Shown one piece after another: positions 14,930 through 58,821 of a DNA stretch of 64,000 nt. Location: NCBI RefSeq assembly GCF_000002425.4, contig NC_037260.1:14858872-14922871 (forward strand). Reading direction: 5' to 3'. The position numbers and the translations under genes were made by a program. Origin of the DNA: Physcomitrium patens (taxonomy: Eukaryota; Streptophyta; Bryopsida; Funariales; Funariaceae). Numbering within the stretch: the stretch's first letter is position 1; every line of letters starts with the position of its first letter. The notes beneath the pieces are model-generated. The model saw only the letters and a list, made by a program, of their open reading frames with translations, was not told where the DNA came from and did not search any database.

Positions 14930-17417
14930 TTACCTCGTTTTCTCCTTAACAGGTACAATGCCATCGTTTCCTGCGAGCAACCGGTACTTATCCTTGCGAG
15001 TGAAATCTGTGCAATCATATCCGAGTTCTCCGGCAAGGAGATGTTGTATGTAGTTCGCCACTTCAATGGACGATTTTCCGCTACCACATGTCATGTTCTT
15101 TGGAATCTCGTCTAGGAATTTGAGTTCGATGGTCGGCCGAGGGTTCATGTAAGCAAAGAAGGGGTCCATGGCTTTGTTACCGCGAGCAGTTGTGCCGTGA
15201 AACATATTCATGTTAATTTTTACGGCCACAGGAACAATCCTGTCACTCAACTCGGCGAAGAGAGCTGAGAATCGAAGCAAGAAAGGCTCCCTGCAAGTAG
15301 TGCCCTCAGGACAAAGAGTGAGCTCACCCTCTTTCAGCACCCTTCTCATATTGGCCGAGTCTTTCTCCCTATCTCGGCACAGGCCGATTGTTGGCATGGG
15401 GGACAGGAACTCTGAGACTTTGGATATGGAGTAAGTCACGGCAGGGACGGGGCGCCCAAGCGCCAGAGCGATGATGACGGGGTCCAGAAGAGTCCGGTGG
15501 TTGCAGACGAAGAGTCTCCCGGGTTCTCCATTCTTGGGCTTCTCAGGGATGTTTCCCTTAACAACGAGGTTGATGCCTGTGAGTTTGTAACACAGTGGCA
15601 TCAAGCGTATGGGGACCCATACACCCATCGTGACGCGGACGATGGACAAAAGCAGGCCGATAGGCATCCATGCCAGCACTTTGAAAGCATTACGGGGCGT
15701 TGGGAGTTGCACAAGCCGACCGTCATGAAAGATTAGCTGCTTCGGCATGTCTTGCTTCTTAACGGCTGGCACTTTCGTTTTGGGTACTACATAGCCTTCC
15801 TGCAACAATTCCCACAAAACTGTATCAAAAATAGAGGTTCTCCCTGAAGGAGTGCAGTACTCGCTCAAGGTCTACAAAAGCATAACATTCACTTGAGATC
15901 TGTGAAGAGCATGATAACGTTGAACTCCTTCTATGCAGTTAACATGCTCTGATATCTAGTATAAATTCGCGATCACAAATTCGGTGATCACTAAAAGCAC
16001 AAGTGACATTTCATTTCTTTTCTTTCTGACAAAAAGGAGAGGGTACCACACGATCGAGAGAACGGAAAGAAACTGAACCTCTAGTTTTATTTGATTCAGC
16101 AACGAATAGGACAGAGAACTAATATCGTATCATTATAGAACTCAACACCAGCAAAAGAGAAGTGCCATTTCAGAATCGTAACGCTTCACATGGGTACACG
16201 GGAAACATGGCAAGACTCCCTACAGACAACTTTCTCAAGACAAGCTTTGGGGGAATGAAGCAAGAACCCTAATGGAACAAGTTAAGAAAATGGGAACCCT
16301 CTCAAGGATTAGGGAGCAGCTTCTCTGTTGCTCGTATTTCATTGCATGAAGCAAGTTGAAGAAAACTCCTAAGACTGAGAAGTGCCATAAAATTAGCTGC
16401 AGCTAATTAGGCAACGTGAGTCAAATCTGTCAGCAGCTATGGAGACCTGGAATCGGAACCTTCTGTGGTAAGTTTCCGGAGTCAATTGCTAGAGTCTCTC
16501 GCAGTAACTAGAGGTAATGCGGGGATGGTCACATAAATGTTGAAAAAACAGCTCATTAGAGAAAGTTGATGGTCAAAAACTATAAGTCGGCGGTCTCCAA
16601 AAGCATGAATCCATTCATGGACGAATCATGAATGGGTTCAGATCAACTGTCAGTACATTCAGCGTTGCTAACATGGGCAATGACACCAAGAGGCAATATC
16701 GCATGTTTCACCACAATCCATAGTGTCACAGGCTTCGAAGTGAGACGTAAGTTTTTAGCAAAACCGCATTACCTTGCAGTACGCCATGAAAGGGAAATCC
16801 GTAACGCGGTCGCCTAGCCCGACGTGCGGGCGCTCACCTCCAATGTTACACCGCTTTAGAGCTTCCTCCTTGTGTGTCCCAACCAGAACACCCGGCTTCA
16901 GAAGCCTGCCTGTAGCGCGGCCCTTTTTGTTCACCTCAATCTCCGTCCCCATAACCTCGTCCGCGCCGAGGACCTCCTTCAGAAACGGCTCCACCATCAC
17001 GCGCGGGTTTGCCGTCAGCACCACACGCTTGCCAAAGCTCGAGAACACCCGCCAAGTCTCAGGGTGAAGGTCATCGGCGTAGAACTTGGTAAGCACAGCG
17101 CGCGCCACACCCTCAATGTCCTTAATCTTCAGCCCCGCGAATGAGAGAAAGATCATGAGGTGAATCCCGGACGCCTCGTCCACAAAGTAGTAGAGAAACC
17201 CAATGAGCGGCGCCATGAGCGACAGCAGCAGCGCCCTGAAGTAACTCCCGGCCTCGAACGCCACCAGGAAGAAATACGGGAAAGCGGACCGCCCCCGAAT
17301 GAGGGTGCCGTCCAAGTCCGCCACCACGGTCTGGCTCCTGCGATCATTCCCTGAGCTGCACGATTTCACCTCCGCGAAGCTGTAGTTCCCGGCCTCTTTC
17401 AACTTCGTCACCTCCAT
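14930..17417 (-). CDS. sn-2 glycerol-3-phosphate acyltransferase with phosphatase domain (GPAT4/6/8 type)
   Basis: Transfers acyl groups to the sn-2 position of glycerol 3-phosphate to build cutin and related extracellular lipids, at the ER. Two exons are joined in phase 0: 16773-17417 and 14930-15799, with a 973-bp gt-ag intron. Together they give 504 aa, normal for the family. The N-terminal HAD-like phosphatase domain has ADLDGTL (Asp34, Asp36) and GLGDRVTD (Asp203, Asp207). These residues are kept in the GPATs that release 2-monoacylglycerol. The acyltransferase domain has NHRTLLDP (His316, Asp321), [17 protein letters not shown] and VPVAVKI in order. Hydrophobic stretches lie near residues 70-105 and 255-280. 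The start at 17417 fits family lengths. An in-frame ATG at 17519 would add a Gly/Glu-rich 34-residue leader and is less likely. Confidence 0.93.
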
Positions 17418-19392
17418 GTCACCTCCTTCCTCTCCCCCCTCCCCCTCCCCCACCCCACCCCCCACCCCCTCTTCAACTCCGAAACTAAAACAATCCAACT
17501 TCCACAAAAGTAATTCCACGAACTCTAGAACGTCTTGGTTATTACGCCTACTCCGCTGTATGTTGACAAATTATCACCTAAACCTGGGAACTCCAACGTG
17601 ATGCAGCGGCAATCGGTTCGGGCTGTAGTTTACCGTCAAACAACCAAACAATGAGCATGACCAATGCAATGATCTACAGACCGTCCCTGAAGCTGTAGTA
17701 ACCACATTTGAGCATCAGTCGAGACTCAACCAGGAACCAGCAGGTTTGAATCTAATCGCTAAGACAACCTCTTCGTGAAACAAATATGTTTCGATCGCTG
17801 TTCTGGACGGCCCCTCTACCCTATCTTCCTTATATACCGTTAGCGACAACCCGATCAGATTTGTCCCAGGAACGAGAGACGAGCGCGACTCATTCACTTA
17901 GAAACACTTAGGCCGTCCATCACCACCCGGTTAGAAAAAATTTGATGACTCCGTCTATTTTTTTGCTTCTTCTTCTCCTGCTTCTCCTTCTTCGGCGGCT
18001 GGTCCCATTACGTGGTCAGGGATCCGGCGACTGGGAGGGACTCGGTTGTTGCCACTTTAGGCCCCGGGATAGATTGCATGAGGGGATGTGGCGAAGCACT
18101 GGCGATGGATCAGAGATGATGAAGGGAGTATTACAGACCCACTGGAGAAATGTTTACATATTCCTGTCTAGATATCTATCTCTGGACATGAATATGTAGA
18201 AAAGTATGTAGATATTCACACATGTGATGTACAACAACAAAACATATATTGCTTTTCTTTTCTTTGCATACATATATAGATAGAAAGATAGATATACACA
18301 CACTCAAGTTTTAATTGCGGTGGTAGCGTGATTGGCAGGAGCGGCTTTGGGCCGGTGGGAGAAGGATCATTAGTTTCAGGCTGGTGATTTAATGGCGGAC
18401 CAGGCAGGGTAGGTGGAGCAGATGTACCAACGCTTTGGAGGGCTTGAAGGCGCAGCTACTGTAGTAGTGTGGGTGTGGGTGTGGTTGTGGTTGTGGGGTT
18501 GCGCTCCTTCTCGCCCGTAAGATCTTTCCTGTCTCCGCTTCTCGGTCCCCGCATCTCCGACGTTGTCTGGGGTCGTCGCCTCCGTCAGCTACCCGTCTCG
18601 TCTCATTCCCCTACTACTAACTCATTCCCCCACCCCCACCCCCCACGTCCTCTTTGGCGTGTGCCTGCCCTGGTGGGACACTCCTCTTGAATGAATTCGG
18701 TCCCTCCACACACATGCACACACACACATTCTGATTCACACCACTTTCTTTTGCTGCTTCTTCTCCTTCGTCATCTCCACCGTCGTCGACTTCTTCTTCT
18801 TCTTTTTTGTGTCAAAGATGTTGGTGACCAACTCTTTTGCGGCAACCTTTACGTTGACAACACCCATGGCCCTTCTTTTGTCTTCTGCTTCTTCGTCACT
18901 CTCTGCGTTGTTGTTGCGTTGTTGGCGATTCTTTATTGCCATGTTTCGTATGTATACTGCCTCTCTTTGTGCTGTTGCCTCCGTGTTCATTTACCTTCAC
19001 CAGATGTATGTGTGTGTGTGTGTGTGCGCGCGTGCGTGCGTGTGTGTATCATGAATTTATGTGGGTGTTTGTTTAATGGATTGTGTGATTATATAGAAAA
19101 ATTGATCCAGGTTGGACAGTGTGTGCTCATGGGCTTTCCACACCATTTGAGGCAAGTATATGGGTTTGTATGATTTCAAACTGCCCACTGGTTAGAATAG
19201 ATAAGAAAAGCATCATGTATACATATTCATATTTATATATTGATTAATTAATTAATGAAGGAATGAGTCACAAACATAAAACTTGATCATGTAGTGAATG
19301 TAGAGGAGGCATGCTAGTTAATAGGGTTAGCTCTGCCATGGCAGATATCAAGCTTCTATTACTAGGATACTAAAGTCAGAGCATATGTACAC

Positions 19393-31945: not shown

Positions 31946-34900
31946 TTACAGATGCTTTGACTTGTAAGGACCATACTTCAGCCAAAGAATAGTGCTTAGG
32001 ACTACACCTCCCAGTAGGATTATATGTAAGACAAATCCAGCAGGGTCATGAGTCTTTCTTAACTGTGGTAGAGATGTGCTGCGGAGGGCATTAGCTAATG
32101 AGGAAAATCGATCATGGGTGACAAGTGCGGAGCCCCTGTCCATTGATGGTACACGAGGAGCTTCCGCTATGGACTTGGGGGGGTACAATGCCCACTGCAT
32201 TGCCCAGATGGCAAGCGGCCGCATGTACGCCAATGATCTGAAGTAGCCATCGATTGTCCATGCTTCCGGAGTTTGAAACCAATATCTGCATTTATCGATA
32301 CCAGTTGAATTCAAGCACACGTTTCAGCACGAAAAGAGTGTATATGCTAGACCAGAATTTTATCAAAAGACACTAATGAAGGTTGCCGCGAGTTCCCAAT
32401 AAGCCCAATCACAGATTGCTCTTCTTTTTAGCTGAGTTAGATCATATAGATCGTATAAAACACAGTGCGGATAAATAGTTCTATTCACAAATTGTAAGAT
32501 AACTTGTCTTTCTCAAAATGTATCCAACTTAATGGACAGTACATCACCAAGATATATGACGTTCGGAAAAAGATGAGGCTAAATACTCACCCGAGATCAG
32601 ACCAGCCGGCTAGAAACACACCCTGAGCAGCTGTGAACGCCTGCTCAACCATTCCTTCGTGTATCATAGCTGCTGATGCTGCATATGTTACCCCAGTCCA
32701 GATTTCACGTGATTGCATGCAAGTTTCATCCACCTTTCCATTGGGATGCATGCCGTTTGCAGCTCCCCACTTACCACCCTTGACCTTCATCACGTTGAAG
32801 TCAAATACTTTCTGTAATGCGCTGCGAGCTTTGTAATCATCGAAAAGAGGTGGCAAACCCGATGCCCAAGCGTACCATTGGCCTGCCAGTTGATCAGCCT
32901 GCACACGTGAAGTAAAAGTCAGTTGAAAACTATCACACACTGCACAACCATATCGGAAAAACGACGGGGAAAAACTAATAAAAACAACTTATAATCTCAA
33001 GTATCTCAAGTTTGAACTAAATAGAAGAAAGTTAGCCAGAGCTACAAAAGCGACCAAAGAACAAAGCACCGACAGAGAAGTATGTGAGTACCTGAACTGA
33101 GTTACTGTTACTGCTTGTTCCACTGTCATAGTTGAAATACTCTCCATTCCAAAGCTTTCGCTCATAAACATCTCTAGCTTGATTAAATTTTCCTTTGAAA
33201 TAAGTGGCTGCATCCTTATCATCTACAAGATCAGCCATGGCAGCCGCAGCTTGCAGTGCAGCTATCCACAAACCTCCACAGTATGCACTAACACCATGAA
33301 CAGACCACGTATCATATGTCTGATCCGGGAATCCATCGTTCTCAATCAGACCATCCCGGTCCCGATCAAATTGGTCCATGTACGCCATTGCTGCATATAC
33401 AGCTGGCCAAACAGCTTTGGCAAATTGTCTATCTCCTGTAGCAACCACATCTCTGTAAACCTGAGCAAAAAAGCAACATCATTCTAAAAGTCAGAAATAA
33501 TCTAGTTTTTCTCCTAGAAAAGTGCAACATATCTAAAAGAACATGAATAAAGCCTACAATGCTAAGTAAGAACAGCTGACACAATACCTGAAGAACAAAC
33601 TTTGGATTAAGATCTTTCCAGTGGCTAGTGTCATGGATGTTGTATGCATTAACTTCAACCCAAGGGTCATGTTGCCCAAGATCGTGCGGAACCGCGCCAA
33701 ACACCTTCCTTATCCCCACGCCCCCGTCAGCCATATATTTAACTTTTTCAGGATTCTGAGAAAGAGTAGCTGCGGCGACATCACGTTGTATTGCAAGTTC
33801 CAGCTTCGGAAATAGAGCAAGGAGTGCAAATGACGCATAGAAATGAACGTCATAAGTATTCCACATGATGTACTCAATACCTTCTAGATAAAGGAACTGT
33901 CCAACATTCTCTTCACCCTCCTGAAGTAGACTGGGCCCTGTGGCTATTCCAGCCTCGGAGGAACCCAACATTGCTGTTTGCATTTGCTTCAATATCAGGT
34001 GTTCCAACGTTTCTGTTTGCATTTGATCAGCAGTCTCCCCGGATTGCAATCGCTCAGTTTCTTGGCTGGCAGCTAACTCCAACTCAGCTTTATCTCTAAG
34101 GCTAAACAAAGATTCACTTGTAGGGAATCCAGCTACATGTTCTAATTCAGAAATATATTGAACTTCTTCATCTCCTAGTCCTTGAAGAAACGGATTAAAA
34201 TCTGCTGAAGGTGCAACATCTGTATTTAAACCAGTATCCTCGCCTTCTTGGTCATTTTCTCTTACTGTGCTTAGGTCAGGACCGGAAGAAGCTGAGTACA
34301 CATCTATACCTTCACCAACCTTCAAAAGATCCAGAGGGAAAGGGACTTCCAAGCTTGTTGCACTGGATATCTCTTCCTTGGAGGGAGAACAAGGAGCAGA
34401 AGTATGTACGGAGGTTACAGTTGAGAGCTCTGACGGTCCTTGTAACGCTGGCAAACCATCTGCAATCGGAGCAGCACCTCATGAAGTAATAATGTTTATA
34501 TGCACTGCGTTTCATTGCAAAAACAATAAACAGGATATCTCTATGTAGGATAGACATACCAAAAAGTAGATGGAAATACTGAATAAAGGACACAATTCAG
34601 TAAGCATGCATGAAATTAAGCTGAATATGACTAGGCAGTATCTCCGACATGCCAGGAATGATACAATCCTCCGTATCTCTTCACTCTGCAACTTCCTTAA
34701 ATCGCAAACTTGGTAGGAAGTGCATCATGTCAAATCACGAATTTTGGAGCTGCACTGAGAGTTGAAATGTTACATGGCTGATAGATCTTACCGGTCCAGA
34801 TAGTGCCACCAGCAACTAAGTAATACAACTCGTTGAAGAGTGTGACACGATACCTGAAAAATTTTGAAATTTGAAACTGAGTTCTCGAAGACTAATTGAA

Positions 34901-47600: not shown

Positions 47601-48990
47601 ACCATTGTATTCCGATCGATTCAATTTAGGGTTTCCCACGTTGTTTGCGAAATGTGGGATCATGTACGTTTTCCTTGAAGACTGTCTCGAGAGATTGGAA
47701 ATTGGACTTTGATAACAAATCTGACGCAGCGCTCAGTTTGCGTCACTTCTAATTGCAAATTTCTTGATGGATTGGTTACGCACACATTTTATTAAAGCGA
47801 TATACAACGTCTCCAGAAGGCAAAGATTTCCAATGATCTTTGAATTGTCTTCTCATGTATGAAGAATCTTCCTGGTAATCTCAAGCAATTTTTTTTGACA
47901 TGGCCGAGTCTGTCAGTTTGATATGTATAGTCGAGATTGTACCGTTGTTATATTCACATCTTGTTGCATGAGATGGATTAATTTAGTAGTCACTTAGTAG
48001 AAGTTCTCAGCAAGCATTTGATAGAGTTTTGTTTAAGAGCGCTCTTTTGTGTGTATTTGTGTGTGTCGAATTGTACCTTCGACATTTGTAGCGGGACGTG
48101 ATGATAAATTGTTGCTGTAGGGCATTGTTTATTGGTTTAGAGTAAGTTTTGGTAGCTGATTTAGGTAGCTTTTCATCAATTTGAGGGAGAAGGTATGGCT
48201 CAGGGTTGGGAAGGGTCAATTTGGTTGAATTGCTCGTTCTGGGTGGATTTCTGTCAATGGTGAATCGTCTGTAGGATGAGTAGAGTAATGTGTGCAGTGC
48301 ACACGAGGATCGGTTTTTCTTAAAGCATACTCTTAAACTAATTGTTTCTTACAGTGTTTGCCGATAACAGCTCGAGGATTTTAGCTTTGCCGATTAGAAT
48401 TAACTGGTTACTCTTTTTCATGGCGCCACAACCTAGTCCTAAGCCTATTCGTGTCTCTAAACTTATTTCACAGAACACTTGAAGTGCTTCTTTAATCAAA
48501 CACGTGCGGATCGGTAGTAGCTATCGATTTCGGACGATGACGTATATGACTAACTGAAAATCCGTTGGTTCCTTGCATCAGAGACGTTGCCGAGCATATT
48601 CGTTACACCCTTTCTAGGCCACACTCAGGAGTTGATGAACTTGAAAGCAACCCTTATCTCTTAAGCATCTTTTGTTAGAACTAAGTCAACTAAGACAATG
48701 ACACCGATGAGATTAATGATATTGATGTGACAATGACACCCCAATTCGCCTTTGAAATTTAGACAAAGCGCGTCTGTTAAGATTATTTTGGTTGGTAATG
48801 ATTCTAGTCAGCCTTACAACAGTAGGAGGTCTCGCGAGTGACAGCGACAGCGGCTCCTGAAATGTTAGATGGAATGTAATGAATTGTCTTCGGTTGAGCT
48901 CTGTGAGCCTTTTGAGTATGTGCTTAAGGTTTGGATCCTCAGGTTTTGCAGATCATTTGCAAGTATTTATAAGTTCTCAATCCAAACGCT
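47601..48990 (+). promoter_or_regulatory. Probable CAPE promoter and spliced 5' leader
   Basis: The AT content falls from about 47520 on. A telo-box (TTTAGGGTTT) lies at 47625-47634. Just upstream of the CAPE start, ttttgcag ends at 48950, so a leader exon probably begins at 48951. In that exon a TAA lies in frame seven codons before the ATG. No upstream coding exon is supported. Confidence 0.4.
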
Positions 48991-51900
48991 ATGTCTGAAC
49001 AGGTATGTAGTTGCCATCAATCTGTTTTTTTAACCTGCTTTTGTGGAAGGCTCTGGACTTTCGAGGGAACATATTTTGACGTGCTTCCGACGAATTGCAG
49101 GAAAATTCGGCTCCGAAGTCTGGAACTTTTCAAGTTTCAGAGGGTGAACACAAGTCTTTGCAAGGCATCGAATCTTGGTCATTTGACGTCTTTCAAGTCG
49201 AGGATGATCAGCTACCTATGGTATTCACTACCTTGACTGTATGCATGAATCTGTTGTTAGGTTTATTACTCAGTGTACATGTATGGAGACTGGTCTATTC
49301 TGATTGAAACAAGGAGATTCAGAACTACGATACTTCAGTTTATGTAATAGCCATGTGCTCATGAATAATTGGGTTGCAGTTGGTGGAAAAGATCTTTCGA
49401 AGCCTCAACATCTTTAATAACTTTCCAATAGATATGCACAAATTTCGAGCGTTCGTCCGTGCAGTGAGTACTTTTTGTACTCTTTCCTATATTTGTTGTT
49501 GTGTAATTGTTCATGCTAAGACTAATTGGCAGTAGCGACTTCAAGTTGCACAGATCTGTGCTAATGAATATAAAGAACGGATGATAACGTGAAAAAAGAA
49601 AAAAGAAAAAGAAATAGAAAAATCCATTTCTGAATATTTTGCAGATGGTAGCACGCTATCAGCCAAATCCATATCATTGCTTCCGGCATGCTTGCGATGT
49701 GCTTCATGCTGTGTAAGTTGGAATTCAACATGAAATATTTGCTTAATTCAGAGAATTCTTTACCACCAAGATCTCGTGTATTGTACTAATCCTAAGCTGT
49801 TGTTGCCCTCCAGTACACATATGACATTGTGCAAACCTTGTTAGCCAATATACCCACAATTTTGCTTACAACGTGTGTAGATACTTGATACTTACTCTCG
49901 CGGAGGGTGCTCAAAGGCTGAATCAGATGGAAATATTTGCTGTGGCCCTGGCAGCTGTGTGTCATGACGTTGATCATCCTGGGCTTACTAATGCATTTTT
50001 GGTTGCTGCTAGTGATCCTATCTCACTCAGATATAATGACAAGGCTGTCTTGGAAAGTCATCATGCTGCCACTGCGTTCCTTACGATGCGGGTAACTACT
50101 CTCAGCTTTGAAGCACTTGCTATTCCGGAACAACTCATGGAAAACTTACACTGCTAAGCCCGTATGCCACGATGTTCTGACGAGTTTGCACTTATTGTAG
50201 GGGCATGACAATGTGAATATCATGTTCTCACTGGATGAACCTCACCAAAGGCATTTGAGGAGACTTGTTCTATCCTGTATTCTTGCAACAGATATGGGTG
50301 TGCATGCTGAGATTATCAGTTCTTTCACAGGACGGTTGAATGATCGTCGGCCCTTTGAACTTTCTGCGCCATACACTCCTCCTGGACCGATGCCCTCAAA
50401 GGCTCCTGAACCAAGTGATACAGGTATAGTATAGTTACAAAATCAAGATTTTTAAGGTTCTATTGCTGTATTTTAATACGACGTCTTAGCATGTGACAAA
50501 TTAGTACAACGAAAACCTGTGCTATCTGCATAAACGTCATATATAAGTTCATATGATTGAATGTAGAAAGTAAGTGCGTATGCAGGGGACACAAAAACAT
50601 TAAGGGCTGATGAGGCGTCTATGAGTTCAAGTGCTGCACCTCCGAATGATGGCAACACCAATCAACCGCCACCAGAACTCAAATCCCCAAATCCGAAATA
50701 TCTGCTACCACCTCTTACCAGCAGCTCTGACGTTATGTTGTACATGCAAATGATAATCAAGTGTGCAGATCTTAGCAATGTCGTCAAACCGTTCTTTTTA
50801 TCCAAACGGTGGTCAGCACTTCTTCTGTTGGAATGGTTTAGACAAGGAGACATAGAGAGAGAACTAGGCATGCGTGTCTCCAAGTTTATGGAAAGGAGTG
50901 AGCCTACAACTCTCATGTACGTTCCCATCCCCTTGTGTTCACTTATTTCAAGAGCTTACAATATTACTTGGTTTACTACAGTGTATGTTATTAGAGTAAT
51001 TGGAAAATGTCATGAAACTTGAGTTCGTTTGCATGGCGGAGGACAGTATAACAAATCTAGCTCCTCACCTAGATCGTTGTTTATACTGCAGGGATATGAC
51101 TATTGGGTGCATTGACTTTGTTGCTAAGCCCATGTTTGAAGCTACTGCAGTTCTTCTTCCACATCTCCATGATGAAGCTCTTGCTAACCTCACATTGAAT
51201 CGAAGCCTTTGGAGCAGTTTTAGCATGGGCGGCCGACGAGGCTCTGAGGCAATACATCTACTTCATATCCTTTACTAGTTTCTACAAAATCTGGATATAT
51301 TATTTGAAAATATAGAGTTGAAGAGTCTTGTTTGTCATGACCTTTAGATTGGTCATCTTGTCACGAGTCTTATTTGACACTTCATACTGTTGCGTCTGTC
51401 TGCTATATTGGCACGATACGTACTTTTAAGACACTTACTAACGTCAAAGTATGCTCTGGGTGAATCTGTGGTATCATACATCAATTGTGAGTGATTATCG
51501 AATTGGAAATGCAGGTAGCTAGGAATATTCTCGGGCCGTTTCTGCCCCCGCCAATTACTATTGATGGGATAGCGGAGAAGTTTGGCGAAGCTGCTGTGAA
51601 AATGGATATCTCATCAAGCTCTCTGCATTATGATATGTACTTGCCAGGTGTTGAGAAGGAATCTCTTCCCATGGCTCCATTGCAACTACTCCCAACATTG
51701 TCTCCAGAGGAACCTACTCCCTTGATCAATGAATTACGTATGGATGAGCATCATCCTTCACTTCTAGCGCTTGATTCTAGCGGCGATAAAAGTCAATCAA
51801 TCAACAAAGGTCCACTCAGACAGGACCGTGAATCTTCAATCTTAGGTGGAGCAGCCCCTTTGAGTTTATTGCGTGTCAACAGAAATGCTTCACTTGATGC

Positions 51901-54900
51901 CAGCTCAGGCGATGGTAATAACTTAGCTCTCAGAAGTTTTGTGGCACTGAGGAGGAATACAGTAGATGAAAGGAATAGAAAACCGAGCTCCATTTCTCTT
52001 CCACCTCCTGGATATAAAGGAACAGAAATGATGACAGATCCCTCAAAAAATGTCGCTCTAGATATTCAGTCTCTGGCCTTTATTCAAGATTCTGCTTGGG
52101 ATAATCGCAAATTTTGGGACAGCATAAGACGACATCCAAACGGAAAACAACTCCATGCATTCTTGGAATCAAGGTTATGGATTTCCATCAATATAATTGC
52201 TACATTTGTGGCAATGTTTGCAAACGATTTTACGAAAGCAATTCTGCCAAAAGCAGTAAGAAACTTATATAACTCATTGCTAAATTCCTTGATTGTTCAT
52301 CAATTTTTTGTTGTTAAATCCAATTTGTTGAATGATCTTTCTATTGATACATGAACTGCAGGCAGATGCTTATGAGACTCACATCTTGAGTATATGCTTA
52401 TTCATTTTCTTTCTTGAGATTATAATGCTCTCAATTCTTTCACAGGGCTACTTCCTTGGTTTTTTCTTTTGGTATGTAAGACTGTTTTTTTAACATCTGC
52501 AGTGGCATTTTTTTAATTCAAATGTATTTCCAATCGAGTATTCGATTTTGAGTTTACGGACTTAGCACACCCTTCTAGTACTCACTATTGCATTGCTTTC
52601 ACTTTCAGGCTTGATTTGATTGGAAGCGTTTCACTTCTGACAGTTATTACAAACGTTTACACTCAAAATCTTGTGATTGCAAGGACTGGAAGAGCTGTCA
52701 AAGCAATGAATCGATTGAGCAAGTCCATGCAAGCTACGCCTTTGTCTAGCATGTTCCCAATTACTTATATCCTAAAGGTGATCACTAGACTTTACGTACC
52801 AAAATCTTTTAGTCTAATACCATGGTCTTCTATTTAATGCTGTTAATAATATTGTTTTGATGTTTCCCCTTTTCATGCTTGATTATGTCAATTCAGTGTA
52901 TTCATATCTGATTATGTGGATCTTTATGGTCTCAGGTCTTTCATTACAAAAACGTTGTAGTAGATGACGACGAGGATGAATATTTTCATGTAGTGTCTTC
53001 AACGAAACCAAGTCAAGTTTGGACTGAGCTTTCGGAGCTAACAGCTCAAAAGCTTATAATTGGTCTGTTGGTTATGATGATCGTGAGTCCTTTATTTCGA
53101 GACAACCACCGGGACTTGGGACCTAAAATGTCCCTCAACACTCTTGATGAATTCCATGGTTGTACTGCTCATTTCAATGAGACCATAGACAGAATTCAGA
53201 CTTTCAATATGCTACATGGCTACAATCTTCTATATATGGGTATCAACGGGATGTGTTGTGGAGTTTCTTGTGCACTTGATAGCGCAACCAATTTTATGCA
53301 GATTGTTCCATCTAAGGGTGCAGACGGTAAGAAAGAGGCACAATTGGAATATCGTACTGTGGAACTCAAATCTGTGCTAAGTGACAGCAATCGAACTGAG
53401 GCCTTGTATTCCATCCGCAGTGAATTGCGAACCAAGCATGCCCTAAATGTTAGTTTCATATACATGACTTTTCAATTACAGTCAGGAGCATCACTCTTTA
53501 GTCACGATATGAGTTCATGATTGGCCTTGCAAATCTAGTAATTTAGAATCAAGTTCAGTACTTCATTGTGTTTCTGAAATCTATTTTTTGAGAATTGTTC
53601 TAGAGTTTTGAACACTACATAAACGTGCTCATGGTTGGGTTTCATCTATGCTGGGTTAGTGTTGAAAACAGATGGCAATGACGGTACTCTGGTTGATTAT
53701 TCTTGGTGCTTGGTCCTTCGTCTTGAGTAATGATTCCAATCGATTGCTGATTCAGGTACAGTACTTAATCTCTTTGTTTGGTCCTCAAAACCTGAAACAT
53801 AGTTGCATCTGTTATCTGGACTAAGTTTTGGACTTATTGTAGCCCCAACACAATAGCCTATCTTACTTTCTTTATTGTACGCTTTGCGTAATTCCTACAT
53901 CTTAAATGTCTTAAAGTCAACTTGTTTCATATGCATATTAACACTGTTAGCTCGTACAGATGTTGGTTTAAGAGTGTACAGCCTTGTATTTTGTGATGAC
54001 AGCCAATTGAACGCATGGTAGAAATTGTGAAGGAGCTTTCGGATGATCCTGTCTCTTTTGCTGCAAGAGCCAATGTGAAGCAACCAGCAATAAGTAGTGT
54101 TGGACAGGTTCGACTGTATTTCTCAGAATGTTCTCATGCTCCATACTTTGATATTGAGATTTTGTTACAACAACAATGGAATCAATCCGTTCTCAGTACA
54201 GAAGTATGGGTTAGTTACAATTAAAGAATTGTTATCTTGACTATTGAATTAAATGACATATATTGGAGTGTCGATCGTTTTTCTGAGCTGATAATGCTAA
54301 TCTGTCATCTGCTATGTGGTGTTCAACTCTGGTTTTCCTTAAATAAGTTGTCAAACATATTTGTGGTAGGTGATGGAAACGCGAGTGGTAGAAGCTGCTC
54401 TTGTAAAGATTGCAAGCCTGTCAAAGGTGGCACTTGGGGATGCTGGCATGGATATTTTATCTGTTAATCTGAAAGGAGGCAGTGAATTCAATCGTAAGGT
54501 TTACATTACTATGACCTTGGTCCTAATGGAATCTCTAGACTTGATACCTTGTATACTATGAATCTGACAAAGAACTTTTTTAGTTAACTCTTTCAATCAT
54601 GGTATTGTATTTGATGACTGTTCTTTCTAATGCATCCATTCCACATTGTACGTTGACGTAGATGTCAGGTAGTTGTTTGATCTCTACATGTGGATTTGAT
54701 ATACAAATTATTTGTAGGATGGGGATTCCTAAAAGTTTGAAGGATACCCTCGTCCAATCTCTAGTTGTTCCTAATATTTATTGCTACTCCTACTATCGAA
54801 TCAGATTGATGGCGAGTTCTGGTTTCTAGAGCATGAGACTTTTTTCTTTTGCTTTTTTCATAAAATACGAGTTCTTCATCTCGTAGTTCTCTTCAGTTCT

Positions 54901-55588
54901 TGTAATTTTAGTATGAAAATGAGTTTTACAAGTTCTAAATTTGTTTGTGTGCCTGTGTCACAGCTATGATTCCTGGGAAAAAAATTCGCGCATGCTTTGG
55001 CTTTTGCGACATCCGAAACTTCACAGATGCCACTGAATGTCTTCAAGAAGACGTGATGATGTTTGTCAACAAAATTGCTGATGTGGTTCATAACAAGGTA
55101 GTCTTCCATTCAGGTTTTCCAAACAAGAACATTGGAGATGCATTTCTACTTGTTTGGAAGAAAAGTGCGGCTGATAATATTCAAAAGGTAACATTCTTCC
55201 TCGAACTCATCTTTGAACTTCTGAAGTTCTTTAGATGACTTGTCATTTTCGCAAGAACGGACTTCGTTTGATTTTGTTTATGGTGGTCCAATCTTAACAA
55301 ATTCTCATGATTTTATGCTGGCGAACTGTTTGTAATGTTGCATCTTACAGACACGCGGCACTAATTCATTTGCTGATCGTGCGCTTCAATCTTTTTTGGA
55401 TATTATCCAATGTATAGAGACATCTCAAACTTTAGCTGAATATGCGATGCATCCAGCAATTCAGAAGCGAATGCCTGGTGAGTTACATCCTCAGAGCATG
55501 TTATAATGTTGCTTTGGTGAAGCTTATATGCAGCCATGCATGGCTATAGCTGTTTAGTCAAAGAATTCAACCGCACTTCGTTTTCATG

Positions 55589-55623
<35 letters not shown>

Positions 55624-56167
55624 CAAAATATTAACGACGTGATTTTATTGAGCAGGATATAAAATACACATGGGATTCGGCCTTCATGTTGGATGGGCTA
55701 TTGAAGGTGCAATTGGCTCAGCTCACAAGGTTGATCCTACGTACTTGTCACCACATGTAAATGTCTCCTCGCGACTGGAAGCAGCAACAAAACAATATGG
55801 TGTGATGATGTTAATCTCGGAGACCGTAGTTGCAGAATTAACCAAAAGCAGTTTGCGCCACTGTTGCCGCAAGTTAGACCGCATAACTGTGAAAGGAAGT
55901 GCTGCACCTATCATTATCTATACGTTCGACTTGCCATTATTTCAACAGGACCTTAAAGGAAACCCAGCTGATTATCGAGCTCTGTTTGAGAACGCGGTTG
56001 ATAATTATATTGAGGGAAATTGGTCATCCGCTTTGGAGAAGCTTGAGGAGTGCTTGCAACTATGGCCAACTGATAAACCCGGCCATGTTCTTCTCAATTT
56101 TATGGCCTCACACAACTACAGGATACCTGCAAGTTGGAAAGGTTACCGAGAACTTACTGAGAAATAG
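48991..56167 (+). CDS. CAPE: CAPE: combined cyclic-nucleotide phosphodiesterase and adenylyl cyclase
   Basis: One protein with both a cAMP-degrading and a cAMP-making domain. Eighteen exons: 48991-49002, 49101-49220, 49380-49463, 49645-49712, 49881-50091, 50201-50423, 50586-50916, 51092-51248, 51515-52255, 52362-52471, 52609-52777, 52936-53448, 53672-53755, 54003-54107, 54370-54493, 54964-55187, 55351-55477 and 55656-56167 (1304 aa). Class I PDE domain, residues 18-390: PYHCFRH (His83, His87), HDVDHPG (His123, Asp124) and KCADLSN (Asp301). About five hydrophobic segments lie between 624 and 931. Class III cyclase domain, 1019-1240: FCDIRNFTD (Asp1033), NKNIGDAFLLVW (Lys1072, Asp1076) and VNVSSRLEAATKQYG (Asn1170, Arg1174). 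A TPR-like tail follows (YIEGNWSSALEKL). The architecture matches Marchantia CAPE, linked to motile sperm. Intron 8 appears to use a GC donor. Confidence 0.95.
55591..55620 (+). repeat. (AT)n microsatellite in CAPE intron 17
   Basis: Fifteen AT units inside the intron at 55478-55655. Confidence 0.95.
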
Positions 56168-56566: not shown

Positions 56567-58821
56567 TTACGTGCCGAATTTGTCTGCACTGCCTTCGTTC
56601 TTAGCAAGTTTCTGTAGGTCGTCCATTCGTTTGACCCATTCCAATTTGGACGAGTGTTCTCGCACATGTTTGTGCAGTGCAACAAGTGTGTTGTACTCAC
56701 AATTGGGGAACATGAAGAAGGGAAACTTGTAACGCAGCCTGTGAAGTACATAACCGAAGCTTAGTTGGTCCCTCGGAGTAAATCTGTTCACTTCGTTGAA
56801 CCAGAGACACGAAAAAAGGTTTGTCATGGGTGTGTGCTCCCGCACGATTAATCCTCCCTCTGGAACGTCTGCAGCAGTTAAGGAACGAATCAAGCGCATG
56901 TTGTAAAGCACAACTCCTCATCTTCGTTTCAATTTCACAGATACTTCCTCTCAAGGAGTTTCAAGCTGCCATTAATCGAATGCCGGTTCGGAAGACATCG
57001 CAGGATAGCACACCTTGATAAAGAATATTCACTCTCAAAAAGTCGCTCTTGGGCACCAAGAAGATTTTTCAAAAATCATTGAAGGGAAATCTGTGGAACA
57101 GGATTCAGCGTGAAGTTTACCTACCACTCTGCAGTGGGAGTTTAGCTTCGGACCACGGTTGCAGGCCCTCTTTACGGTAAACCTCCATATGTTGGTCAAT
57201 TAGAGGACGAGCATATCGCTTTCGTCTCTTGCATGCATCCGCTTCTTCATACACACTTCGATGATACTTATGTTGCGCAATTGCAAACGACTGATTCTCT
57301 CTCCACAAATACCTGCTTCCTTACAGTTCAAAATCTAATTCAAACCGCAGATTATTTTCACTACTCAACAGCGTGGATGTATGAAAGACAAAGGTTGAAG
57401 GATTTCTACCTCTCAAGAATCAAGAGGGGGTCGGCTACAAGCTCCAATTTCCCATCAATCCAAATACTATACCGCGTTTTGGGAAACAACCGATGAAGCA
57501 GAAGCTTCGGCACCTTGCCATTTCGTCTTGCCTCATCATAAGGCAAGCTCTTCATTTCAATTACTCGCCACATTCCAACCCAGTTTCCTTCATTTTCATC
57601 TCGTACCAGAAATTTTCCCTCTTCGAAGGTCTTGACAGAAACATGGTCTGCCAACATTATGAAGCAAAATATCTTATGAGCCAGCCGGCTCACATTTGAG
57701 GGCTGATGCGGTTGGTCATAGTTATCAAAGATGCCGGTGGCTACTAGAAACCTGCAGTGGCTCACATACCCTTGATCTTTTCTAGCGATTAACTCTGGTC
57801 CATCAACTTGAGCGAATCCACAGTGTATCTGCACAAGGAGGGCATTTAGTCCAGTGTCTTGGATAATTTGTTGAAGAGTATTTTATATATTTTTCAGATG
57901 TTGCAGTTTTAGATGAGGCTGGTTGGGTTTAAGTACATTCTTCTTAGGCTCGAGATCAAAACTTTCTTCTCTTTGTCGCAAGGTTTGATTTCCCCCAAAG
58001 AGAAGATTCATCGGCAGCTCCTTGCCACCATTCGCAAAACTTCCTTCCACAACATAACTCAACTCCAAATCGACCGACGAGGCATTCCTCTTCCAGTCTG
58101 GGAACTTTACGGACCATGGGCTGTCCACAAGTGCAATGGGACAACCTGTGAAAGACACAAATTAGACTTCTCATTGATGAGCTCAGAATACCATTTGCAC
58201 ACAAGCTGTGCATCTTCCCTCCCCCCTAAAAACAACTTAAGGCCAAGAAACACTGCGTTCGATTTAGCTATCCATGTCTGAAAAACCATCTCACGGAACA
58301 AGTATTCCTGTATCTCTGGTCAAGTATGACCATTCGATATATTTTACTTAATTCAATGCATTGCCAAATGGCTACACTCTTTCCTCACTTTCAAAAAAAA
58401 TAATTGCTTTTCAAGAAGTGACTATCACCAAGTAGTTGCAATCTTACGGTGTGCAGGACCAGGGAAGAGCCCAATCGCTGCAAGAAACATATAAATCTTA
58501 CGCCTCTTCTTGCATTTCCCTACATCAAAACAGCACTGAATCTGAAGTAAACCAAGCCTACCACACCGAAAAGGAGTAAGCGAATAAGTGATATCCCTTC
58601 CAGCATCACTCACCAAAGGCACTGCACGCAACAATTTTTGAGACAATCTTCAAAGCCACAAACCAATGTAAGAGCAACAAACCTGGAAAGGGGGTCCTGG
58701 ACTCGCACGACCAGAAGAAGAACACCGTCAAGGAGAAGAGAACACTGAACCATACGATGATCATCCCTGCAAGAAACAGCCATCGCGCCTTTCTCCGCCT
58801 CATACAGTGCATGAGCTCCAT
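56567..58821 (-). CDS. DUF616 / MUCI70-TOD1-like type II membrane glycosyltransferase
   Basis: Member of the plant DUF616 family, which includes the pectin-related MUCI70 and the TOD1 protein reported as a ceramidase. Five exons: 58821-58683, 58145-57937, 57828-57410, 57312-57125 and 56868-56567. They give 418 aa. A short basic N-terminus (RRRKAR) and one membrane segment (about 14-38) indicate a type II Golgi protein. The luminal domain begins IHCGF (117). It continues with DQGYVSHCRFLVATGIFDNY, NGKVPKLLLHRLFP, YSIWIDGKLELVADP, LWRENQSFAIAQHKYHRSV, VPEGGLIVREHTP and LWFNEVNRFTPRDQLSF, the family blocks in order. Splicing exon 1 directly to exon 2 keeps phase, but a small extra exon near 58200-58540 cannot be ruled out. 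The exact substrate is unknown. Confidence 0.88.

Follow-up and report, generated by a model that had tools for sequence, protein, structure and literature searches.

A voltage-sensor-like S1-S4 region between the phosphodiesterase and the adenylyl cyclase of CAPE from Physcomitrium patens

Introduction

CAPE proteins carry a phosphodiesterase (PDE) and an adenylyl cyclase (AC) on a single chain, and for the CAPE of Marchantia both activities have been demonstrated in vitro, with a promoter that is active in the antheridium (PMC5159850). The cyclase activity of the Marchantia protein was low, and its authors proposed 'a mechanism to stimulate AC activity' (PMC5159850). The membrane part has been described as 'two hydrophobic segments' (PMC5159850) or as 'four transmembrane regions' (PMC8115329), and full-length cDNAs have been published from Marchantia, Anthoceros, Cycas and Ginkgo (PMC5159850, PMC8115329). 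Here we analyse a locus in a stretch of 64,000 nucleotides of the moss Physcomitrium patens (contig NC_037260.1; hereafter the window): it is the P. patens CAPE gene (PpCAPE), whose coding region (48991..56167) lies on the forward strand, as do all PpCAPE features given below, and is spliced from 18 exons into a single open frame of 1304 amino acids. A reading made from the DNA letters alone (the sequence-only reading) had recognised CAPE, its domain order and the fact that this is not a new family, and rightly so: the P. patens member was already reported in 2016 (PMC5159850).

Proteins of related design have been described outside plants. The 'bimodal' proteins PPTG_13136 and PPTG_13761 of Phytophthora unite a voltage-sensor domain of the Ion_trans/S4 type with a cyclase and are pore-less, and PPTG_13136 is reported to lie on the flagellum of the zoospores (PMC12223298, published in 2025); they resemble CAPE in having sensor and cyclase and no pore and differ from it in that no PDE has been described, whilst the words 'CAPE' and 'Marchantia' do not occur in the text of that paper. 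The ion-channel adenylyl cyclases of Paramecium, Tetrahymena and Plasmodium (Weber 2004) likewise hold voltage-sensor domain and cyclase in a single chain, but are described with a K+-channel pore (PMC10651576, PMC12223298). In a 2023 review, one figure of which is described as covering all reported voltage-sensor proteins, section 4 lists channels, sNHE, the pore-bearing Paramecium, Tetrahymena and Plasmodium cyclases, Ci-VSP and Hv1, and CAPE is not named there (PMC10651576); compared by description only, the non-channel members of that list join S1-S4 segments to a non-channel activity, as in CAPE, with different effectors. Proteins of Saprolegnia, known here by description only, also bring both catalytic classes together in one protein and were judged by the 2021 authors to be independent of plant CAPE (PMC8115329). 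Neither CAPE paper uses the word 'voltage' in its main text (0 occurrences in each; PMC5159850, PMC8115329) or mentions a voltage-sensor-like domain, and no paper calling the CAPE membrane region a voltage sensor was found in a search that did not extend to bioRxiv, most subscription journals or supplements.

A voltage-sensor-like domain in the membrane region

The mid-region of CAPE, published as transmembrane helices, looks like the S1-S4 voltage sensor of ion channels, a pattern that is revealed by the alignment of CAPE with its relatives. In the moss protein the domain comprises residues ~619-735 (52163..52756, exons 9-11) with Phe665 and Glu668 in S2 and Asp688 in S3, which we take to be the gating-charge transfer centre pattern of Kv channels, followed by S4 (residues 711-730, 52682..52741) with Arg711, Arg714, Lys717, Arg721 and Lys724. 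The sequence-only reading had described the two catalytic halves correctly and overlooked this membrane region. Homology to voltage-gated channels is shown at the level of sequence through the family profile: the Pfam model Ion_trans matched four of six relatives (Chara CAPE with 4e-6, P0011, P0012, which its tag leads us to assign to Rhodelphis, and P0042 from Tetraparma), with the match limited to the S1-S4 half (profile positions 2-127 of 241), and it matched 15 of 20 family S1-S4 segments, the best at 6e-12. When a profile of these 20 segments was compared with the sequences of the PDB, all 23 distinct matches at E<=0.1 were voltage-gated channels or chimeras thereof (best E-value 0.0026; Nav1.7 domain III 0.003, Shaker 0.04, HCN 0.05).

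Conservation was counted over 9 land-plant rows, two of which are the same moss gene, and 147 other rows. Phe665 and an acidic residue at 668 are present throughout (9/9 and 147/147 in both cases), and Asp688 is found in 8/9 land-plant rows and 147/147 others. Basic residues occupy position 711 in 9/9 land-plant rows and 129/146 others, 714 in 8/9 and 131/146, 717 in 9/9 and 135/147, 721 in 8/9 and 143/147, and 724 in 9/9 and 144/146; in relatives S4 reads ARAGRAARAGTRAGRxxRxxRxxR. A published criterion for a voltage sensor is four to six S4 charges at roughly every third residue (PMC10651576), and the moss S4 has five, spaced by three to four residues. Hydropathy detects S1, S2, S3 and the later transmembrane helices TM5 and TM6, but not the charged S4, which may explain the published helix counts of two or four.

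Between S4 and the cyclase lie TM5 (residues ~777-795, 53038..53094), a predicted extracellular alpha/beta domain (residues ~797-913, 53098..53448), TM6 (residues ~914-932, 53672..53728), which continues into a cytoplasmic helix (...IQPIERMVEIVKELSDDP...), and cytoplasmic signalling helices ahead of the cyclase (residues ~942-1017, 54003..54493). A model of a fern CAPE (mean predicted local distance difference test score, pLDDT, of 75) contains the S1-S4 helices, TM5, the alpha/beta domain, a single long TM6 helix and the cyclase; TM5 and the small alpha/beta domain, which the topology puts on the extracellular side, recur in a model of what moss exon 12 encodes, and a structure search with this domain gave no confident match. 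In the models TM6 runs on into the cytoplasmic helix; the signalling helix comes next, ahead of the cyclase and its helical tail. Of the K+-channel filter motif T-x-G-Y/F-G, expected between S5 and S6 in the ciliate and apicomplexan cyclases, the form T-x-G-Y-G occurs between sensor and cyclase in 0/158 family members; T-x-G-F-G occurs in 3/158, always just ahead of the cyclase, and a bare GYG in 5/158, with moss not among them. As judged from sequence, CAPE is thus shown to lack a K+-pore signature, and its S1-S4 domain would be pore-less. Moss CAPE in this way displays the features of the zoospore family, namely an Ion_trans/S4-type domain and a cyclase in a pore-less protein. The published PPTG_13136 antibody peptide, which corresponds to moss residues near 1110-1128, aligns with family member P0066 at a score of 74, with 20 shuffled peptides reaching at most 47, and on this one peptide, the link between the two groups, CAPE and the Phytophthora zoospore proteins would share the same scaffold.

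The catalytic halves

The class I phosphodiesterase domain (residues 82-377, 49672..51173, exons 4-8) is matched by PDEase_I at E 4e-67 and the class III adenylyl cyclase domain covers residues ~1028-1235 (54993..55957, exons 16-18), after which a C-terminal helical tail (55958..56164) ends in the family motif W-x-G-x-R-x-L-T-E-K. All nine catalytic residues named in the sequence-only reading were found at the numbers it gave: the metal-binding residues His83, His87, His123, Asp124 and Asp301 in the PDE, and Asp1033, Asp1076, Asn1170 and Arg1174 in the cyclase, to which Lys1072 and Thr1163 can be added. Asp1033, Lys1072 and Asp1076 are conserved in 25/25 aligned family members and Asn1170 and Arg1174 in 23/25, the exceptions being P0009 (gap) and P0046 (which departs). 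The moss cyclase is below detection for Guanylate_cyc in the Pfam scan; it matches solved cyclases in the PDB, with substrate, metal and transition-state residues all there, and the corresponding region of the fern CAPE model has a cyclase fold. Residue comparison thus shows two sets of intact catalytic residues on the single PpCAPE chain, and by analogy with Marchantia the moss protein probably has both activities. The Marchantia protein (P0002) has the same domain order and catalytic residues, with identities to moss of 62% in the PDE, 48% in S1-S4 and 83% in the cyclase, but is longer (1610 aa) and has a longer linker.

At the position of the purine-binding Gln of most class I PDEs, PpCAPE has Thr353. 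The alignment places Thr here also in Marchantia, Riccia, Anthoceros, Chara, Cryptomeria and P0010, Asn in Cycas, Ala in P0011, Rhodelphis and P0024 (by its tag presumably Opistho-2, a unicellular holozoan), and Gln in four rows of the diatom/Tetraparma type. Thr or Asn at this position in plant CAPEs has been noted earlier, with Asn given for Cryptomeria (PMC8115329), whereas the Cryptomeria protein aligned here (P0009) has Thr.

Gene model and transcripts

The exons of PpCAPE are 48991-49002, 49101-49220, 49380-49463, 49645-49712, 49881-50091, 50201-50423, 50586-50916, 51092-51248 and 51515-52255 (exons 1-9) and 52362-52471, 52609-52777, 52936-53448, 53672-53755, 54003-54107, 54370-54493, 54964-55187, 55351-55477 and 55656-56167 (exons 10-18), which reproduces exactly the 1304-aa spliced PDE-cyclase frame of the sequence-only reading. 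The model is identical to the P. patens RefSeq protein P0001 over 1165/1165 overlapping residues and to P0198, from an assembled contig, over 555/555. Its sole unusual splice site is the GC donor after exon 8 (51248), which opens the GC-AG intron (51249..51514) that joins the PDE half to the remainder. A U12-type AT-AC donor at the end of exon 8 (51264|ATATCCTT; 1308 aa) was dropped, as the RefSeq protein supports the GC-AG join; the PDEase_I scan and the first relative search (542 matches) were made with this provisional 1308-aa model.

P0001 is RefSeq isoform X4, which starts at an upstream ATG (48869), takes exons 1-2 in a different frame and then continues inside exon 5, and which lacks His83, His87, His123 and Asp124, the first four PDE metal ligands (region 48869-50091). 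The start of P0198 before exon 5 also differs from the PpCAPE model. Possibly, the starts of P0001 and P0198 represent PDE-dead splice forms.

Relatives and phylogeny

From two relative searches, 120 of 542 and 120 of 286 matches were listed and used. PDE, sensor and cyclase occur together in 58 of the 318 proteins that were scanned with our own domain models (PpCAPE and P0001 being the same gene), including streptophyte CAPEs, centric diatoms, Tetraparma, Rhodelphis (P0012) and Opistho-2 (P0024). The sequence-only reading was right that CAPE is known from Marchantia and other plants with motile sperm, while the restriction to plants that it implied does not stand: the same domain order is found in diatoms, Tetraparma, Rhodelphis and a holozoan. 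A further 100 of the 318 proteins have sensor and cyclase and no PDE match, among them Mesostigma (by tag), Tetraselmis, Chlorella, Palpitomonas, Blepharisma, the fern half-gene P0008 and the truncated P0014, whose N-terminus resembles the end of a PDE by eye although it was counted as sensor and cyclase only. Judged by these domain contents, CAPE appears to be a member of a eukaryote-wide sensor-cyclase family to which a PDE has been added. In Adiantum nelumboides CAPE is annotated as two neighbouring genes, P0199 and P0008 (PDE half and sensor-cyclase half), which are very likely one split gene; a PDE-only model was also seen in Ceratopteris (P0200).

Readable names among the PDE-sensor-cyclase rows of the P0030 family are Cyclotella, Thalassiosira, Cyclostephanos, Skeletonema and Tetraparma, and many of these proteins also carry GAF domains. 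No pennate diatom is among the readable names, most rows being without a name and the best 7991 candidates having been scored. Centric diatoms have flagellated sperm; to our knowledge, pennate diatoms have none. Fusions confined to centric diatoms could possibly provide a second link to flagellated gametes, which we regard as a lead.

Trees were calculated for the PDE (of the 184 rows that held enough of this domain, 53 after thinning at 72% identity) and for the scaffold (80 of 150 rows, thinned at 62% identity, sensor and cyclase having been matched in 158), with a careful tree of 40 of those 80 rows. The moss gene groups with plant CAPEs in both halves. For the PDE the free topology needs 6 label changes, and a single clade of 19 fused rows and 2 plant PDE-only models was not rejected (p 0.23). 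The scaffold tree of 80 rows has a 31-row group (91 in the Shimodaira-Hasegawa-like approximate likelihood ratio test, SH-aLRT) that includes every one of the 21 PDE-fused rows and is separate from a 19-row group with four green-algal-named rows; holding the 21 fused rows together with P0014 and P0015, the latter included only as sister of P0014, was 5 log units better than the free scaffold tree (p 0.6). The careful tree unites CAPE with P0010, P0011, P0014 and P0015 in a starred clade (100/100), and all PDE fusions as one clade appeared in 2% of 200 bootstraps and are contradicted by no starred branch.

Function and origin of CAPE

The interpretation towards which we lean, by a small measure, is that CAPE is a membrane enzyme composed of a PDE, a pore-less voltage-sensor-like S1-S4 domain, a hairpin of TM5, extracellular domain and TM6, a signalling helix and a cyclase, in which the membrane potential sets cyclic AMP (cAMP). 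Voltage control itself is what we infer from this architecture: a change in membrane potential would move S4, TM5/TM6 and then the signalling helix would relay this movement to the cyclase dimer, and the resulting change in the dimer would govern how much cAMP the sperm makes, probably within its flagellum, whilst the attached PDE would keep the signal local and brief and the extracellular domain may provide a second, chemical input. More tentatively, and with less than even confidence, we suggest that CAPE serves swimming plant sperm as a cAMP machine under voltage control, one that stems from an early flagellate and was kept along with swimming gametes in streptophytes, perhaps independently in centric diatoms. 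If so, each change in sperm membrane potential would give a flagellar cAMP pulse, and CAPE would be to plant sperm what the voltage-sensing sNHE is to animal sperm. Should voltage control prove real, the short published list of non-channel voltage-sensor proteins would gain CAPE, with cAMP synthesis and breakdown in one voltage-sensor chain. The domain offers a testable stimulus for cAMP production in the sperm of Marchantia and Physcomitrium. As far as the literature was searched, three points are new to print for CAPE, namely its voltage-sensor-like domain, the broader occurrence of its architecture and its connection with flagellar sensor-cyclases, whereas the fusion and the moss member were already known.

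Several observations weigh against voltage control, and some of them favour a rather unlikely competitor, in which S1-S4 is a relic sensor that now acts as membrane anchor or dimerisation scaffold, so that CAPE confines cAMP turnover to a membrane patch and does not respond to voltage. This agrees with the published view that CAPE is anchored in the membrane and regulates cAMP locally (PMC5159850, PMC8115329). Moreover, the moss S4 lacks both inner charges at 727 and 730 (52730-52741): a basic residue at 727 is present in 0/9 land-plant rows versus 119/142 others, and at 730 in 1/9 (Anthoceros) versus 143/147, Chara being among the others with a basic residue in both cases. Because land plants lack the former and nearly always the latter, voltage sensing may be weakened in them. 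This loss dates a change in the sensor to the emergence of land plants or close to it. The moss S1-S4 segment by itself has no Pfam match at E<=0.01, Marchantia P0002 and Opistho-2 P0024 have no Ion_trans match at E<=0.1, and the PDB E-values are modest, with no match of the 20-segment profile at 0.001 or below. Selaginella P0007 lacks S3 beyond FAFW and the S3-S4 loop, possibly through a gene-model fault; the S1 hydropathy peak of 1.52 means little alone, given that the soluble PDE has three peaks of 1.31-1.49; confidence in the S4 of the fern model is low (pLDDT 51-64 at residues 281-310); and no channel was among the best 50 matches of either fold search, both being filled by the cyclase and S1-S4 not having been folded alone. 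In the literature available to us no gating current, voltage clamp or localisation was found for any CAPE. Furthermore, because the first four metal ligands of the PDE are missing from P0001, the two-enzyme protein need not come from every transcript, and Cupressales retain CAPE despite having no motile sperm (PMC8115329), so that the claim of the sequence-only reading that seed plants without motile sperm lack CAPE is not quite true, with Cryptomeria P0009 also among our matches. An anchor-only role is nonetheless doubtful, because the five S4 charges, Phe665, Asp688 and an acidic residue at 668 are each retained in at least 8 of the 9 land-plant rows, and a pure anchor would hardly require them. 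Unlikely in our view is a further alternative, in which CAPE is mainly a receptor whose TM5-TM6 extracellular domain, on binding of a small molecule, drives the cyclase via TM6, with S1-S4 secondary.

As to origin, the published derivation places the joining of a PDE to a green-algal cyclase within streptophytes, between Klebsormidiophyceae and Charophyceae. Streptophyte CAPEs do form a single clade in both the PDE tree and the scaffold tree, and the 2016 cyclase tree has CAPE and algal cyclases adjacent as two clades with a branch support of 72 (PMC5159850). However, forcing the CAPE lineage and the green-algal sensor-cyclases into one clade was rejected in the approximately unbiased (AU) test with p 0.0058, a value from a quick tree that is somewhat too favourable, as the 19 'green' rows were picked from the tree itself and 4/19 are green-algal-named. 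The careful tree agrees in assembling green-algal, ciliate and Phytophthora-like rows in a 13-row clade without CAPE (100/99), and the identical architecture in diatoms, Rhodelphis and a holozoan speaks against late assembly too. Because of the AU rejection and the separate starred clades, the derivation from a green-algal cyclase within streptophytes is not supported by our sequence comparisons, and such a late plant fusion seems quite improbable; should P0010, P0011, P0014 and P0015 not be streptophyte, CAPE proper would be older than plants. We give next to no credence to the notion that PDE and cyclase are two separate genes joined only by the model: the split of the fern gene in the database models (P0008 and P0199, with neighbouring locus tags) could be taken in its favour, but the spliced exon 8/9 junction, at which the sequence-only reading had proposed to look for a split, is present in both P0001 and P0198, and full-length CAPE cDNAs from Marchantia, Anthoceros, Cycas and Ginkgo have been published.

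Other features of the window

Rfam and tRNA scans of the window gave nothing. On the reverse strand, a TOD1/MUCI70 glycosyltransferase-like gene lies just downstream of PpCAPE (57406-57882; Pfam E 3e-50), and the same strand carries a glycosyl hydrolase family 116 catalytic region (33432-34478; E 1e-43) and a RAM2-like glycerol-3-phosphate acyltransferase gene (14933-17570) with a HAD-like part (E 2e-59) and an acyltransferase part (E 5e-8).

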